Below are positions 17,673 to 60,534 of a DNA stretch of 64,000 bases, in pieces. Positions within the stretch are counted from its first letter, which is position 1. Every line of letters begins with the position of its first letter. Below the pieces are notes generated by a model, which did no database searches, was not told the origin of the DNA, and was given only the letters and a program-made list of their open reading frames with translations. The stretch lies in NCBI GenBank assembly GCA_017445225.1, contig JAFSUN010000008.1:1-64000 (forward strand), read 5' to 3'. Position numbers and translations under genes: made by a program. This DNA comes from Erysipelotrichaceae bacterium. GTDB lineage: Bacteria; Bacillota_I; Bacilli_A; Erysipelotrichales; Erysipelotrichaceae.

Positions 17673-18968
17673 ATGGATATCAGACAGAAAGCCGTAGATT
17701 TCATGCTGAAATACGGTCAGCATCCCGACTATATTGATCTGCCGAAGCAGACAGCCTACATCGTTGAACAGATGAAGCTCGGTCTGGCCGGCCAGCCGTC
17801 CGATCTGATGATGATCCCGACCTACCTCTCAACCGAAGGAAAGGTAAAGAACGGGGAAAGCGTCATTGTCATCGATGCCGGCGGCACCAACTTCCGCATC
17901 TGCGTTGCCACCCTGACCGAGGAAGGTGTCAAGGTCGACCACTTCTTCAAGAGAAAGATGTTTGGCGTCGGCACCCCGATCGACAAGGATCAATTCATCG
18001 AAGAACTGGCCAAGCTGATCTTCCCGTTACTGCCCTATGCCAACAGAGTCGGCTTCTGCTTCTCCTACGCTGCTGAGATCACCCCGGACAAGGACGGTAA
18101 GGTCATCTCCCTGTCCAAGGAAGTCTACATCAACGGCATTGAAGGCACCCTGTTATGCCATGAGATCGAAGACAAGTTAAGAGAAATGGGCCAGAAGGAA
18201 GACATCAAGTTCATCCTGCTGAATGATACCGTCGCTACCCTGTTAGGCGGTCCGGCCATTAAGGAAGATGAGAAGTTCGACACTCAGATCGGCTTCATCC
18301 TGGGAACCGGCACCAACATTGCCTATGACGAAATGGGCTGCAACATCACCAAGATCAAGTGCAATCCCAAAAAGAAGATGATCATCAACACCGAAAGCGC
18401 CGGTCTGGTACCGATGAAGATCGGTGAACTCGACAAGCAGCTCGACCGCGAAAGCGCCAACCCGGGCCTGCACCTCTATGAAAAGGCCATCTCGGGCGGC
18501 TATCTGGGCACCCTGCTGAAGCAGACCCTCATCAAGGCGGCGGCAGACGGACTGTTCTCAGAAGGCAATAAGATGGCTGAACTGCCGGACTTCGACCTGG
18601 CCACCGTTGACAGTTTCCAGAGAAGACCGTTCGGCGACAACCATCTGACCAAGGCCTGCGGCAATGAAGATGACATCGAACTGGTATACCACTTCATTGA
18701 CCTGATCCTCGACAGATCAAGCAAGCTGGTCACCGCCAGCCTGGCGGCCATCCTGATCGAAACCGACGGCGGCAAGAAGCTCAGCCAGCCGGCCAGAGTC
18801 ATGGTGGAAGGCACCTCCTTCTTCAAGACCTATTCCTACAGGGAAAGAATTGAAAGCTACATGCGGGAATATGTCCACAAGCAACTGGGCCGCTACTACA
18901 TGTTCACCAGCGGTGAGGATGTCAACCAGATCGGCAGTGCCATCGCCGCCATTCTCAACGCCAAATAA
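17673..18968 (+). CDS. Eukaryotic-type hexokinase
   Basis: A 431-residue protein of the hexokinase-1/hexokinase-2 superfamily typical of eukaryotes. It has MMIPTYL near residue 46, the phosphate-binding IDAGGTNFRI near residue 67, a catalytic loop with LLNDTVATL, GFILGTGTN and the C-terminal helix region that ends the large domain. Most bacteria use ROK or Glk glucokinases, which are shorter and lack MMIPTYL. Function inferred: ATP-dependent phosphorylation of glucose or another hexose at C6. AGAGG precedes the ATG. It is a single-gene unit with its own promoter and terminator. Confidence 0.9.
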   Translation: MDIRQKAVDFMLKYGQHPDYIDLPKQTAYIVEQMKLGLAGQPSDLMMIPTYLSTEGKVKNGESVIVIDAGGTNFRICVATLTEEGVKVDHFFKRKMFGVGTPIDKDQFIEELAKLIFPLLPYANRVGFCFSYAAEITPDKDGKVISLSKEVYINGIEGTLLCHEIEDKLREMGQKEDIKFILLNDTVATLLGGPAIKEDEKFDTQIGFILGTGTNIAYDEMGCNITKIKCNPKKKMIINTESAGLVPMKIGELDKQLDRESANPGLHLYEKAISGGYLGTLLKQTLIKAAADGLFSEGNKMAELPDFDLATVDSFQRRPFGDNHLTKACGNEDDIELVYHFIDLILDRSSKLVTASLAAILIETDGGKKLSQPARVMVEGTSFFKTYSYRERIESYMREYVHKQLGRYYMFTSGEDVNQIGSAIAAILNAK

Positions 18969-18994
18969 GGCCTGAAGACAAGAACCAGATACTG

Positions 18995-19028
18995 AAATGA
19001 CGGACTTCGGTCCGCCATTTTAAATTTT
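18995..19028 (+). terminator. Hexokinase terminator
   Basis: AAATG-a-CGGAC pairs with GTCCG-c-CATTT around TTCG, one mismatch, then TAAATTTTTTT. Confidence 0.8.
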
Positions 19029-19091
19029 TTTCAATTTGCTGAAATAAAATGCCCCTGAAATTCATTAATATGGCAGAAAGGAGGAGAACAG

Positions 19092-19631
19092 ATGACCAGT
19101 ACTCTTACGCATCAGAAGAACATGGAGATCGATGACTGCCTGCATCGGCTGGCCGCTGGTGAGATGAACGCCCTCGAGCGATTATATGAACTGACCAGCA
19201 CGAACATATACGGCTATGCACTGTCCTTAATGCAGAATAAGAGTGATGCTGAGGATGTCATGCATGATCTGTATGTCAGTGTGTACAGTAATGCGGCCTT
19301 ATATTCCTCGAGGCAGAAACCGCTGGCCTGGATGCTGACCATTACCAGAAATCTGGCCATGGCCAAGCTGAAGGAAAAGAACCGCAGTCAGGAGTTAACC
19401 GACCTGCAGCTGCAGTTCATCAGTTCGGAAGAAAAACTGTCACCGATCGAGAAGGAAACCCTGAGGCAGACCTTGAGGATTCTGAACGATGAAGAACGTC
19501 AGATCGTTGTCCTCCATTCACTCGGGTTCAGGCATGTCGAGATAGCCGCAACTCTCGCAATGCCCCTGCCTACGGTATTGACCAAATACCACAGAGCTTT
19601 GAAAAAACTCAGAAAGGAGCTGGAAAAATGA
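19092..19631 (+). CDS. ECF-type sigma-70 family factor
   Basis: A 179-residue sigma factor with region 2 (SDAEDVMHDLYVSVYSNA, then WMLTITRNLAMAKLK for -10 recognition) and region 4 (LNDEERQIVVLHSLGFRHVEIA helix-turn-helix). There is no region 1 or 3, as in ECF factors. It overlaps by four bases with a membrane protein that has the RsgI-type domain, its presumed anti-sigma factor. AAAGGAGG precedes the ATG. Targets and signal are unknown. Confidence 0.92.
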   Translation: MTSTLTHQKNMEIDDCLHRLAAGEMNALERLYELTSTNIYGYALSLMQNKSDAEDVMHDLYVSVYSNAALYSSRQKPLAWMLTITRNLAMAKLKEKNRSQELTDLQLQFISSEEKLSPIEKETLRQTLRILNDEERQIVVLHSLGFRHVEIAATLAMPLPTVLTKYHRALKKLRKELEK

Positions 19632-21307
19632 ATAACAGGGAATTAGAAAAAAATCTCTTCAAGGCTATTGAAAACTCTGCACCCGATAACCTGGGATCCA
19701 TTAAGGAATCCTGCCGCCACACCGTCCAGCGCTCACCCCTGCCGAAAGCCAGCCGTTTCAGCCTGCTGAAGCCGGCCCTGTCACTGGTAGCTGCCCTGGT
19801 ACTGTTTGTCGGCGGATTCAGCCTCTACAACAGCCGGATGAACGCCGTCTTTACCACCGTGGACCTCGACGTCAACCCTTCCATCGAACTGCAGATCAAC
19901 CGCAATGACAAGATCATCAACGCCATCGCCAACAACGCCGACGGCAAGAAGATCCTGGCCGACATGAACTTCAAGGGCAGCGATGTCAAGGTCGCCGTCA
20001 ACGCCATCGTCGGTTCAATGGTCCGTAACGGCTACCTGTCCGAACTGACCAATTCCATCCTGGTTTCCATCCAGAATAAGGATGAAGCCACGGCGCAGAA
20101 ACTGCAGCAGCAGCTGGCCGCCGAGATCAACACTCTTCTGCAGACGGAAACCTTCAGCGGTGCCGTCCTGGCCCAGACCGTCAGCGAAAACGACGACACT
20201 GCCCGAATCGCCGAAGAATATGCCATCTCCCTGGGCAAGGCCCAGCTGATCCAGGAGATCTGCGACAAGACCCTCTATACCCCCGCCGATCTGGCACCTC
20301 TGAACATCAACGACCTCAGCCTGATCCTCAAGCACGTCAATACCAGTTCGGTATCCGCCACCGGTACTCCTTCCGAAAAGCAGTACATTGGTGAGGACAA
20401 GGCCCTGGAAGTCGCCCTGAATGATCTCGGCATTACCGACAAGAGTCTGTTAAGGGACCTCGACATCGAATTTGAATACGAAAAGGGCCAGCCGGTCTAT
20501 GACATTGAATTCGAATACAACGGCAATGAATATGAATACGACATCGATGCCGTCAGCGCCAGGATCGTCGATAAGAACATCGATACCGCTGACCGCCAGG
20601 AAAAGAGCGTACCTGAGCATGCCAACGTCATCGGCAAGGACAAGGCTAAGGAGATCGTTCTGAATCATGCCGGTGTCAAGGCCGCTGATGTAAAGAACTA
20701 TGAAGTGGAGCTCGACAGCGAAAAAGGTTCCGTCGTCTATGAAATCGAGTTTGAAGCCAACGGCTATGAATACGAATATGAGATCAATGCCGTGACCGGC
20801 AAGATCCTGAAGAACGAAAAGGAAAAGGCTGACGGCTCCTCCGTCAAGCCATCATCAGACACCAGTACCAATTACATCGGTAAGGAAAAAGCCAAGCAGG
20901 CCGCCTTCAAGCATGCCGGCGTCAAGGAAAATAACGTCAGGGCTCTGGAGGTCAAGCTCGATAAGGAAAACGGCAAGGCCGTCTACGAAGTGGAATTCAA
21001 GGCCGGCGGCTATGAATACGACTATGAGATCGATGCCCTGACCGGCAAGATCCTCAAATCCGAGAAGGAAAAAGATGATGACTCATCTTCAGATAAGGGC
21101 AGCAGCACGGTCACAACCACGATCAGCGCTGACCAGGCCAAGCAGATCGCTCTGAAGCATGCCGGCGTTACCGCCTCCAAGGTCAAGGCTGAGCTGGACA
21201 AGGGTGTCTGGGAGATCGAGTTTACCGCCAACGGCTACGAATACGAATATGAGATCAACGCCACTACCGGCAAGATCATCCACAGCGAAAAGGAAGCAGC
21301 CGACTAA
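19628..21307 (+). CDS. RsgI-like anti-sigma factor with four PepSY repeats
   Basis: A 559-residue single-pass membrane protein. A short cytoplasmic N-terminus of about 45 residues is followed by one transmembrane helix (about 48-68) and, outside, the RsgI middle domain (VDLDVNPSIELQINRNDKII). Four PepSY-type repeats begin at residues 253, 334, 416 and 499, each with an IG/IS-x-DKAK start and a GYEYEYEIN-x-TGKI ending. Coupling to the sigma gene implies the cytoplasmic tail holds the sigma factor until an outside signal is sensed. The ligand is unknown. Confidence 0.88.
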   Translation: MNNRELEKNLFKAIENSAPDNLGSIKESCRHTVQRSPLPKASRFSLLKPALSLVAALVLFVGGFSLYNSRMNAVFTTVDLDVNPSIELQINRNDKIINAIANNADGKKILADMNFKGSDVKVAVNAIVGSMVRNGYLSELTNSILVSIQNKDEATAQKLQQQLAAEINTLLQTETFSGAVLAQTVSENDDTARIAEEYAISLGKAQLIQEICDKTLYTPADLAPLNINDLSLILKHVNTSSVSATGTPSEKQYIGEDKALEVALNDLGITDKSLLRDLDIEFEYEKGQPVYDIEFEYNGNEYEYDIDAVSARIVDKNIDTADRQEKSVPEHANVIGKDKAKEIVLNHAGVKAADVKNYEVELDSEKGSVVYEIEFEANGYEYEYEINAVTGKILKNEKEKADGSSVKPSSDTSTNYIGKEKAKQAAFKHAGVKENNVRALEVKLDKENGKAVYEVEFKAGGYEYDYEIDALTGKILKSEKEKDDDSSSDKGSSTVTTTISADQAKQIALKHAGVTASKVKAELDKGVWEIEFTANGYEYEYEINATTGKIIHSEKEAAD

Positions 21308-21317
21308 ACAGCAGATT

Positions 21318-21341
21318 AAAAGAGGGACTTCCCTCTTTTTT
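21318..21341. terminator. Bidirectional terminator
   Basis: AAAAGAGGG-actt-CCCTCTTTT with a T run on the plus side and an A run on the minus side. It lies between the anti-sigma gene and the end of the amidotransferase gene and touches that gene's stop codon. Confidence 0.8.
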
Positions 21342-40738: not shown

Positions 40739-42562
<1,824 letters not shown>

Positions 42563-43290: not shown

Positions 43291-44553
43291 ATGCGCGAAG
43301 TCATTAAAATAGAAGGCGGTCATCGCCTGAACGGGACCCTGAGAGTGTCCGGTGCCAAGAATGCCACCGTTGCCCTCATCCCCGCCAGTGTGCTGGCTAC
43401 CAAACCGGTAAGGCTGGTCGGCATACCGGACATCTCCGATGTCGTGTCCCTGAAGGAGATCCTTCAGTACATGGACATCGAGGTACAGACCCCCTTTGAA
43501 GATGAGATCTACATCGATCCCAGCAACATGCACAACAAGCCGCTGGTCATCGATGCCGTATCCAAGTTGCGGGCTTCCTACTATTTCATGGGGGCCCTGC
43601 TGGGTAAATACCGGGAAGTTACCATCAAGATGCCGGGCGGCTGTTACCTGGGTCCCCGGCCCATCGACCTGCATCTGAAGGGTTTTGAAGCTCTCGGAGC
43701 CAAAATCAAATACGAAAACGAGAATTATATAATCAAGGCTGACCGGCTGGTCGGCTCCCGGATCTACCTCGACATCGCCTCCGTCGGCGCCACCATCAAC
43801 ATAATCATGGCCGCCGTCCATGCCGAAGGCCGGACCACCATCGAGAACGCTGCCCGGGAACCGGAGATCATCGACGTCATCACCCTGTTAAACAAGATGG
43901 GGGCTCAGATCAGAGGTGCCGGTACCAGCGTCATCACCATTGACGGTGTTGAGACCCTGGGCGGCTGCTTCCACGAGATCATCCCAGACCGCATTGAAGC
44001 CGGAACCTTCACGATACTGGCTGCCGCCATGGCTGACCACGTCCGGATCGAGAACGTCATTCCCTACCACATCGACTCCCTGATCTCCAAGCTCAAGGAA
44101 GCCAATGTCAACATCGATGCCAAGATCGATTCCATCGATATCTACAGTTCACCGCGCTTACAGGCGGTTGACCTGATCACCAAGCCCTATCCCGGTTTTG
44201 CGACCGATCTGCAGGCCCCTCTGACCAGTCTGTTGACCCAGGCTGAGGGCGTCAGCGAGATCGTCGAGACCATCTATCCGGAGCGCTTCAAGCACTGTGA
44301 ACAGTTAAGCTACATGGGTGCCAACATCCTGGTCACCATTCCCAAGGCTTCTATCAGAGGCCGGACTCCTCTGCACGGGGCTTCCGTCCGGGCTACGGAC
44401 TTAAGATGCGGCGCTTCCCTGGTCGTCGCCGGCGTCATCGCGGACGGCATCACCACCATCGATGACATCTATCACATCGACCGCGGCTACGAAAACCTCG
44501 ACAACAAGCTGCGCAGCATCGGCGCCCGCATCTGGCGGGAAAAAGTCGATTAA
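43291..44553 (+). CDS. murA: UDP-N-acetylglucosamine 1-carboxyvinyltransferase
   Basis: 420 residues. The N-terminal GAKNATVA and the active-site loop MPGGCYLGPRPIDLH with the catalytic cysteine (targeted by fosfomycin) are intact. It transfers enolpyruvate to UDP-GlcNAc in the first committed step of peptidoglycan synthesis. AAGGAG precedes the ATG. murA also lies close to the atp operon in Bacillus. Confidence 0.97.
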   Translation: MREVIKIEGGHRLNGTLRVSGAKNATVALIPASVLATKPVRLVGIPDISDVVSLKEILQYMDIEVQTPFEDEIYIDPSNMHNKPLVIDAVSKLRASYYFMGALLGKYREVTIKMPGGCYLGPRPIDLHLKGFEALGAKIKYENENYIIKADRLVGSRIYLDIASVGATINIIMAAVHAEGRTTIENAAREPEIIDVITLLNKMGAQIRGAGTSVITIDGVETLGGCFHEIIPDRIEAGTFTILAAAMADHVRIENVIPYHIDSLISKLKEANVNIDAKIDSIDIYSSPRLQAVDLITKPYPGFATDLQAPLTSLLTQAEGVSEIVETIYPERFKHCEQLSYMGANILVTIPKASIRGRTPLHGASVRATDLRCGASLVVAGVIADGITTIDDIYHIDRGYENLDNKLRSIGARIWREKVD

Positions 44554-60481: not shown

Positions 60482-60508
60482 CAAAATTTTGTCTTTTGCA
60501 ATAAATAA

Positions 60509-60522
60509 TTAAAGCGCTTACA
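60509..60522 (-). promoter_or_regulatory. cre-like site upstream of the HPr gene
   Basis: On the minus strand TGTAAGCGCTTTAA matches the catabolite-responsive consensus TGWAANCGNTNWCA at 13 of 14 positions. It is centred about 46 bp before the likely transcription start, where CcpA-HPr(Ser-P) could control the HPr gene itself. Confidence 0.55.
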
Positions 60523-60534
60523 TTTTGTTTTTAA

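Follow-up and report, generated by a model that had tools for sequence, protein, structure and literature searches.

The two genes at 19092-21307 of the window (the 64,000-nucleotide stretch of an Erysipelotrichaceae genome analyzed here) probably form a self-contained, autoregulated switch that senses the cell envelope and whose membrane component is predicted to cleave itself. The first gene encodes an ECF sigma factor and the second an anti-sigma factor that joins a SEAL-type RsgI_M domain to four PepSY repeats. The promoter motif conserved upstream of such pairs is the new element of this study. We infer every signaling step from sequence, predicted fold, and motif conservation.

Organization of the locus

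The features of the locus are listed in Table 1. The initial annotation had located both genes and paired them correctly; as read from the sequence, their open reading frames overlap by 4 nt (ATGA, 19628-19631). Because hairpins with U-tracts flank the pair, the two genes are probably organized as a two-gene operon. The upstream hairpin folded with -13.9 kcal/mol (z -4.12) and the downstream one with -12.7 kcal/mol (z -3.83), and in each case 0 of 200 shuffles was as good; neither was reported by a consensus terminator scan. According to Pfam, the operon is preceded by a hexokinase gene and followed by a convergent gene of the glutamine-amidotransferase type. The hexokinase gene, just 5' of the operon (17673-18968, forward strand), encodes both a Hexokinase_1 and a Hexokinase_2 domain, and proteins with both are mostly known from eukaryotes. 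Elsewhere in the window, a 607-aa frame (40739-42562, reverse strand) resembles by eye a Sua5/YciO-type threonylcarbamoyl-AMP synthase fused to a serine hydroxymethyltransferase.

Table 1. Features of the sigma/anti-sigma operon, and predicted repeated promoters in relatives
Feature	Position	Strand	Basis
Terminator-like hairpin with U-tract, assigned to the hexokinase gene and setting it apart from the sigma operon	18993-19031	+	RNA fold
Predicted ECF promoter: -35 TGAAATAAAA, N12, -10 region TCATTA	19040-19067	+	Motif conservation
Ribosome-binding site AAAGGAGGAG	19077-19086	+	Read from sequence
ECF sigma factor gene, 179 aa	19092-19631	+	Pfam Sigma70_r2 and r4_2, AF2, Foldseek
Membrane anti-sigma factor gene, 559 aa	19628-21307	+	Pfam RsgI_M and four PepSY, AF2 model
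N-terminal part in the cytoplasm (residues 1-47; two helices), presumed to bind sigma	19628-19768	+	AF2; function inferred
Transmembrane helix (residues 48-71) with VAA, an XAA-type motif	19769-19840	+	AF2 helix
RsgI_M (SEAL-type) domain, residues 76-210	19853-20257	+	Pfam; VIA-align Z 16.9 to 8hdj_D
Predicted autocleavage bond N83-P84	19874-19879	+	The two sole invariant columns of the alignment; B chains of solved RsgI domains start at the P84 equivalent
PepSY repeat 1	20387-20575	+	33.5 bits
PepSY repeat 2	20630-20812	+	43.3 bits
PepSY repeat 3	20876-21064	+	50.3 bits
PepSY repeat 4	21122-21280	+	50.8 bits
Terminator-like hairpin at the end of the two-gene operon	21318-21341	+	RNA fold
Predicted repeated promoters of stand-alone PepSY genes in relatives	L029 3530-3635, L034 3591-3703, L035 3676-3853		Weight matrix

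The sigma factor matched the Pfam models Sigma70_r2 (9.5e-10) and Sigma70_r4_2 (2.6e-7), both over the curated cut-offs, and the general model TIGR02937 with 54.7 bits (cut-off 42.9). With regions 2 and 4 only, it has the architecture and, at 179 aa, the size (about 180 aa) of an ECF sigma factor. Its AF2 model (pLDDT 90.8) was closest in fold to SigW and SigK by Foldseek, and the ECF assignment made in the initial annotation was thus confirmed.

The reading of the second protein as an RsgI-like anti-sigma factor with four PepSY repeats was likewise borne out by Pfam, the AF2 model, and VIA-align. Pfam detected RsgI_M with 102.8 bits (2.9e-29; cut-off 25.3) and PepSY with 141 bits over four stretches, all above the cut-off. 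The repeats start 81, 82, and 82 residues apart, so that the spacing of 81-83 residues proposed earlier was roughly right, apart from its upper value. The AF2 model (mean pLDDT 88.7, pTM 0.55) showed two N-terminal helices, then the helix of residues 48-71 and the RsgI_M domain, and last four PepSY units, each of helix plus strand, connected by low-confidence linkers. The modeled RsgI_M domain superposed on the periplasmic domain of RsgI2 with an rmsd of 2.4 over 148 residues, and the PepSY part matched the Clostridium difficile lipoprotein CD1622 (4exr; Z 10.1), YpmB (9.4), and YpeB (8.5). The rmsd of these two-domain PepSY matches is high (7-16 A), probably because the domains are freely placed.

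Distribution of the architecture and history of the repeats

For comparison, 45 RsgI_M proteins were aligned: the anti-sigma factor of the window, 20 proteins from named genomes, and 24 from an order-level search. The 20 were kept from 40 named-genome loci, the other 20 being set aside as apparently PepSY-only by coverage and a missing N-P motif (only L029 and L035 were profiled). From the 29 order-level loci (L046-L074), L051 and L055, taken to duplicate L021 and L017, were removed, as were L065, L071, and L073, which are lipoprotein-like and devoid of a sigma-binding N-terminus; L074 was kept though lipoprotein-like too, and three further matches had no locus. Because all four of these lipoprotein-like proteins, which have no sigma-binding N-terminus, carry RsgI_M, the domain may also serve outside anti-sigma factors.

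Among 60 relatives, RsgI_M was found in 21 genomes; of the eight congeners searched, one had it and seven did not. The initial annotation took PepSY on RsgI_M to be unusual. It is common in these relatives instead: the order-level search was made without selection for PepSY, and 14 of the 24 proteins kept from it carry one to three copies; the number of repeats across the 45 proteins ranges from 0 to 6. The architecture occurs widely, both across this order and among genomes labeled Clostridia; one member, L008, comes from the culturable Traorella massiliensis.

A sigma gene lies directly upstream of 42 of the 45 RsgI_M proteins, the exceptions being L005, L064, and L074, before which none was found; the sigma alignment accordingly has 42 rows. 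Sigma70_r2 was detected in all 42 and Sigma70_r4_2 in 39. In a sigma tree from which three SigI-type rows were excluded, the 32 PepSY-linked sigma factors fell on one side of a branch with a support of only 53, and PepSY linkage required one change, compared with a mean of 6.6 after shuffling. Among the non-PepSY ECF/RsgI_M pairs, L048, L058, and L069 lie behind a gene whose product has an end that by eye is rich in Asp, Asn, Gly, and His.

The four repeats of the window's protein are 35-66% identical to one another. The nearest neighbor of repeat 1 was repeat 1 of L052 (49%), that of repeat 2 its own repeat 4 (66%), that of repeat 3 repeat 2 of L059 (63%), and that of repeat 4 repeat 3 of L009 (69%). 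Over the 82 repeats of proteins with at least two, first repeats were nearest to the first repeats of other proteins in 21 of 28 cases, last repeats to last repeats in 20 of 28, and middle repeats to repeats of their own protein in 11 of 26, counts raised by the presence of close relatives in the set of 45. The terminal repeats thus look old, judging from sequence neighbors, and the middle looks like the place where copies come and go. On the identities and the positional neighbors, we rejected the recent tandem duplication that had been suggested. The alignment of repeats proposed for dating the duplications was of no use to that end, as third-position differences are too few, and probably too codon-biased.

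Comparison with known sigma/anti-sigma systems

With the SigI/RsgI systems of Bacillus subtilis and Clostridium thermocellum, the pair shares the RsgI_M/SEAL periplasmic domain with its N-P bond, the single transmembrane helix, an exchangeable C-terminal sensor, and a sigma gene directly upstream. Unlike them, it has no RsgI_N, and an ECF sigma factor replaces SigI. Pfam gave no RsgI_N match in the anti-sigma factor at E 0.1. Across the alignment, RsgI_N was found in three proteins (L046, L062, and L063) and was absent from the other 42; in the sigma factors beside those three, region 4 gave no match. Lacking RsgI_N and having a sigma factor with an ECF region 4, the pair is, by its sequence, not a SigI/RsgI pair; rather, a SEAL-type anti-sigma factor is coupled to a different sigma class.

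As in SigW/RsiW and SigK/RskA, a sigma factor with regions 2 and 4 is encoded next to a membrane anti-sigma factor. SigW/RsiW requires a separate site-1 protease, whereas the site-1 cut is here predicted to be autoproteolytic. Extracellular PepSY domains are shared with TseB/YpmB, CopD, and YpeB, proteins that, unlike the anti-sigma factor, have neither a SEAL domain nor a sigma partner. The sensor is a further difference: an array of PepSY repeats here, and carbohydrate-binding, glycosidase, PA14, or peptidase-like modules in the SigI/RsgI systems (PMC12203970).

Predicted self-cleavage and release of the sigma factor

Residues N83 and P84 were the sole invariant columns among the 45 aligned proteins (45/45 rows). 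In the RsgI entries 8her, 8hep, 8u9o, 8heq, and 8hdj of the PDB, residue 1 of the B chain aligns with P84; a cut at N83-P84 fits because the B chains of these solved domains begin there. The autoproteolysis of SEAL/RsgI proteins is reportedly the subject of two studies, Brogan 2023 and Chen 2023. In the literature surveyed by title and abstract, we found no paper joining PepSY with such an anti-sigma factor.

The published model for RsgI runs from autocleavage through RseP to ClpXP (PMC12203970). Because the N-P pair is invariant and solved RsgI chains start at the P84 equivalent, the same course, with constitutive self-cleavage followed by RseP cutting and release of the sigma factor, is the likely mechanism for the present pair. 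A single M50/RseP-type protease is encoded in its own assembly (G000:C2:47069-48091). The transmembrane helix has the published XAA motif in the form VAA; as AA was found near the helix in only 22 of the 45 proteins (L059 and L070 being anchored on the wrong N-P), the motif supports the mechanism weakly. Two published observations count against the model: in C. thermocellum, RsgI8 lacks a self-cleavage motif and is not self-cleaving, and in B. subtilis signaling was not fully blocked when the site of RsgI was closed (PMC12203970).

In the proposed sequence of events, the short cytoplasmic N-terminus of the anti-sigma factor would keep the ECF sigma factor at the membrane. Outside the membrane, the SEAL-type RsgI_M domain would cut itself between N83 and P84, as the invariant N-P and the solved relatives suggest, and both pieces would stay associated. 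The four PepSY repeats would form the outer arm, and a change in what they bind, or a pull on them, would cause the outer piece to depart. An RseP-type protease would then cut the transmembrane helix and ClpXP would clear the remainder, steps that have been described for RsgI6 of C. thermocellum and would apply here by analogy, leaving the sigma factor free. Acting at its predicted promoter, the free sigma factor would raise the expression of its own operon. Such a switch would most likely guard cell-envelope or wall synthesis.

A conserved promoter motif and its sites in relatives

The search for a regulon by promoter motif, proposed in the initial annotation, was fruitful. The motif TGMAATAAWA-N13-CRTTA was found upstream of PepSY-type pairs. 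A strict pattern, TG[AC][AG]ATAA[AT]A-N13-[CG][AG]TT[AT], matched 23 of the 32 PepSY pairs and 0 of the 10 non-PepSY pairs, and a looser pattern 27 of the 32 and again 0 of the 10; dinucleotide shuffles of all 42 upstream regions gave on average 0.02 strict and 0.08 loose matches, with a maximum of 1. As the strict pattern was derived from the same sequences that it scored, the contrast with the 10 non-PepSY pairs and the genome scans are the better tests. In the window's own assembly, which is 75% complete, TGMAATAAN{13,17}CATTA had a single match, at 19040-19067, and 0 in the reversed control. Since this sole match precedes the sigma operon itself, the sequence suggests that the operon is autoregulated.

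Other patterns were less specific. The loose pattern TGCAATAAN{14,16}YRTTA gave many matches in the 60 relatives that in most genomes were not clearly above the reversed control, and its totals were not used. A longer pattern with at most two mismatches matched 11 places in the own assembly against 13 in the reversed control, for which reason the ten beyond 19040 were taken as chance; none was seen before a PepSY or murA gene. A weak promoter-like site with a spacing off by one was noted at 60497-60530 (forward strand; score 14.6).

A weight matrix built from 23 sigma promoters was run over the collected DNA of the relatives and the window. The top score and other strong scores preceded three stand-alone PepSY genes outside the training set (L029, L034, and L035; Table 1), before which the predicted promoter is repeated in two to three tandem copies with units of 72-79 bases. 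Their products are PepSY proteins, membrane-anchored or secreted (five PepSY stretches in L029, three in L035), and a large ABC exporter-type gene adjoins these genes. The membrane-anchored layout is that of TseB/YpmB, CopD, and YpeB.

Over 315 genomes of the order, the strict site TGCAATAAWA-N12-GCATTA was found 23 times in 18 genomes, compared with 1 in the reversed control. Seven of these sites lie before a sigma gene of this family, six before a stand-alone PepSY gene, and two before murA; of the eight others, seven are inside open reading frames. The six PepSY sites come from five genomes in two genera and amount to about three independent cases, because four look orthologous within one genus. 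With a slightly looser site, the 20 named genomes that encode an anti-sigma factor of the PepSY type, some of them shared with the larger scan, yielded 16 matches, spread over 11 genomes (control, 2); by position and letters, these were assigned to the sigma operon (10), a stand-alone PepSY gene (3), murA (1), and other locations (2). A small secreted-looking PepSY-like protein of 154 aa (L136 853-1314, reverse strand), from another genus of the window's family, is encoded behind a perfect site and had no NCBIfam match. L064 (1347-2724) has RsgI_M, three PepSY repeats, and the motif directly upstream, but a sigma gene was not found before it; G016, the genome it belongs to, also has a full pair at L072.

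The 421-aa product of the murA target matched the MurA model PRK12830 of NCBIfam with 634 bits (cut-off 552). Of 19 genomes searched for murA, the start was readable in 16, each with 389 bases or more upstream, and a site at -241 to -253 was present in four, all of genus g31. These are all the readable genomes of g31 (the fifth has only 181 bases upstream), and their sites keep both boxes and differ in the spacer; no site was found in the other 12 genomes with a readable upstream region. In the window, murA (43291-44553) closely follows another gene, and the weight-matrix scan found no site before it. No stand-alone PepSY gene was found in the own assembly, at its completeness of 75%.

The signal and its alternatives

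The initial annotation proposed a peptide, protease, or metal signal, and nothing was found in favor of these. The putative targets in relatives, PepSY proteins and murA, instead favor cell-envelope homeostasis as the source of the signal. According to PMC7478892, SigI of B. subtilis, which is SEAL-controlled, supports wall elongation through mreBH and lytE. The PepSY membrane proteins TseB/YpmB and CopD also act in wall elongation; the PepSY domains of TseB bind PBP2A, TseB may bind MreC, and the PepSY part of CopD bound none of the PBP domains tested (PMC10653890). The envelope is favored because SigI and TseB/CopD act in wall elongation and because of the murA site. By analogy with TseB/YpmB, which docks on PBP2A and perhaps MreC, it is conceivable, as a tentative proposal, that the repeats attach to the wall-synthesis machinery and so register wall elongation, either mechanically or through their occupancy; faltering growth would strip away the self-cut outer half, and the sigma factor would induce competing PepSY proteins and, in some lineages, murA.

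The repeats may instead, like the propeptides of M4 peptidases, bind or inhibit a secreted protease, an excess of which in free form would pull or cut them and so fire the sigma factor, with the induced stand-alone PepSY proteins mopping up the protease. Both the match of the repeats to M4-propeptide PepSY, by sequence (9vy3) and by fold (vibriolysin propeptide 3nqz, Z 7.7), and the promoter motif shared by stand-alone PepSY genes speak for such a sensor. We nevertheless regard it as unlikely, since no protease gene was seen among the targets in relatives, murA would go unexplained, and TseB and CopD, which are membrane proteins with PepSY domains, have their role in the growth of the wall (PMC10653890). 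It is quite improbable that the pair is a purely local element that sets its own level only and has no wider regulon, or that it is on its way to loss. The single motif match in the own assembly and the seven of eight congeners without RsgI_M would agree with this, but that assembly is 75% complete, the reading frames, the N-P site, and the promoter are intact, and relatives have further sites. Hardly credible is a true SigI/RsgI system in which the sensor module alone was swapped: the RsgI_M domain with its N-P site is what such a system would have, but this reading is already contradicted by the missing RsgI_N in 42 of 45 proteins, that of the window included, and by region 4 of the window's sigma factor, whose structure is nearest SigW and SigK; the three proteins that do have RsgI_N adjoin region-4-less sigma factors.

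If the repeats do sense wall elongation, one domain would be shared by the sensor and its output, and the switch would have a built-in negative feedback. SEAL domains that cut themselves have been described in SigI/RsgI systems, where plant polysaccharides and defects of the wall are sensed. In the present pair, such a domain would work with a different sigma class and a PepSY sensor, in Bacillota that are represented mainly by metagenome-assembled genomes. Through the conserved motif, the regulon can be predicted from sequence, which gives a first handle on its putative targets, PepSY proteins and murA. The motif would also provide a transcriptional read-out for testing what extracellular PepSY domains bind.
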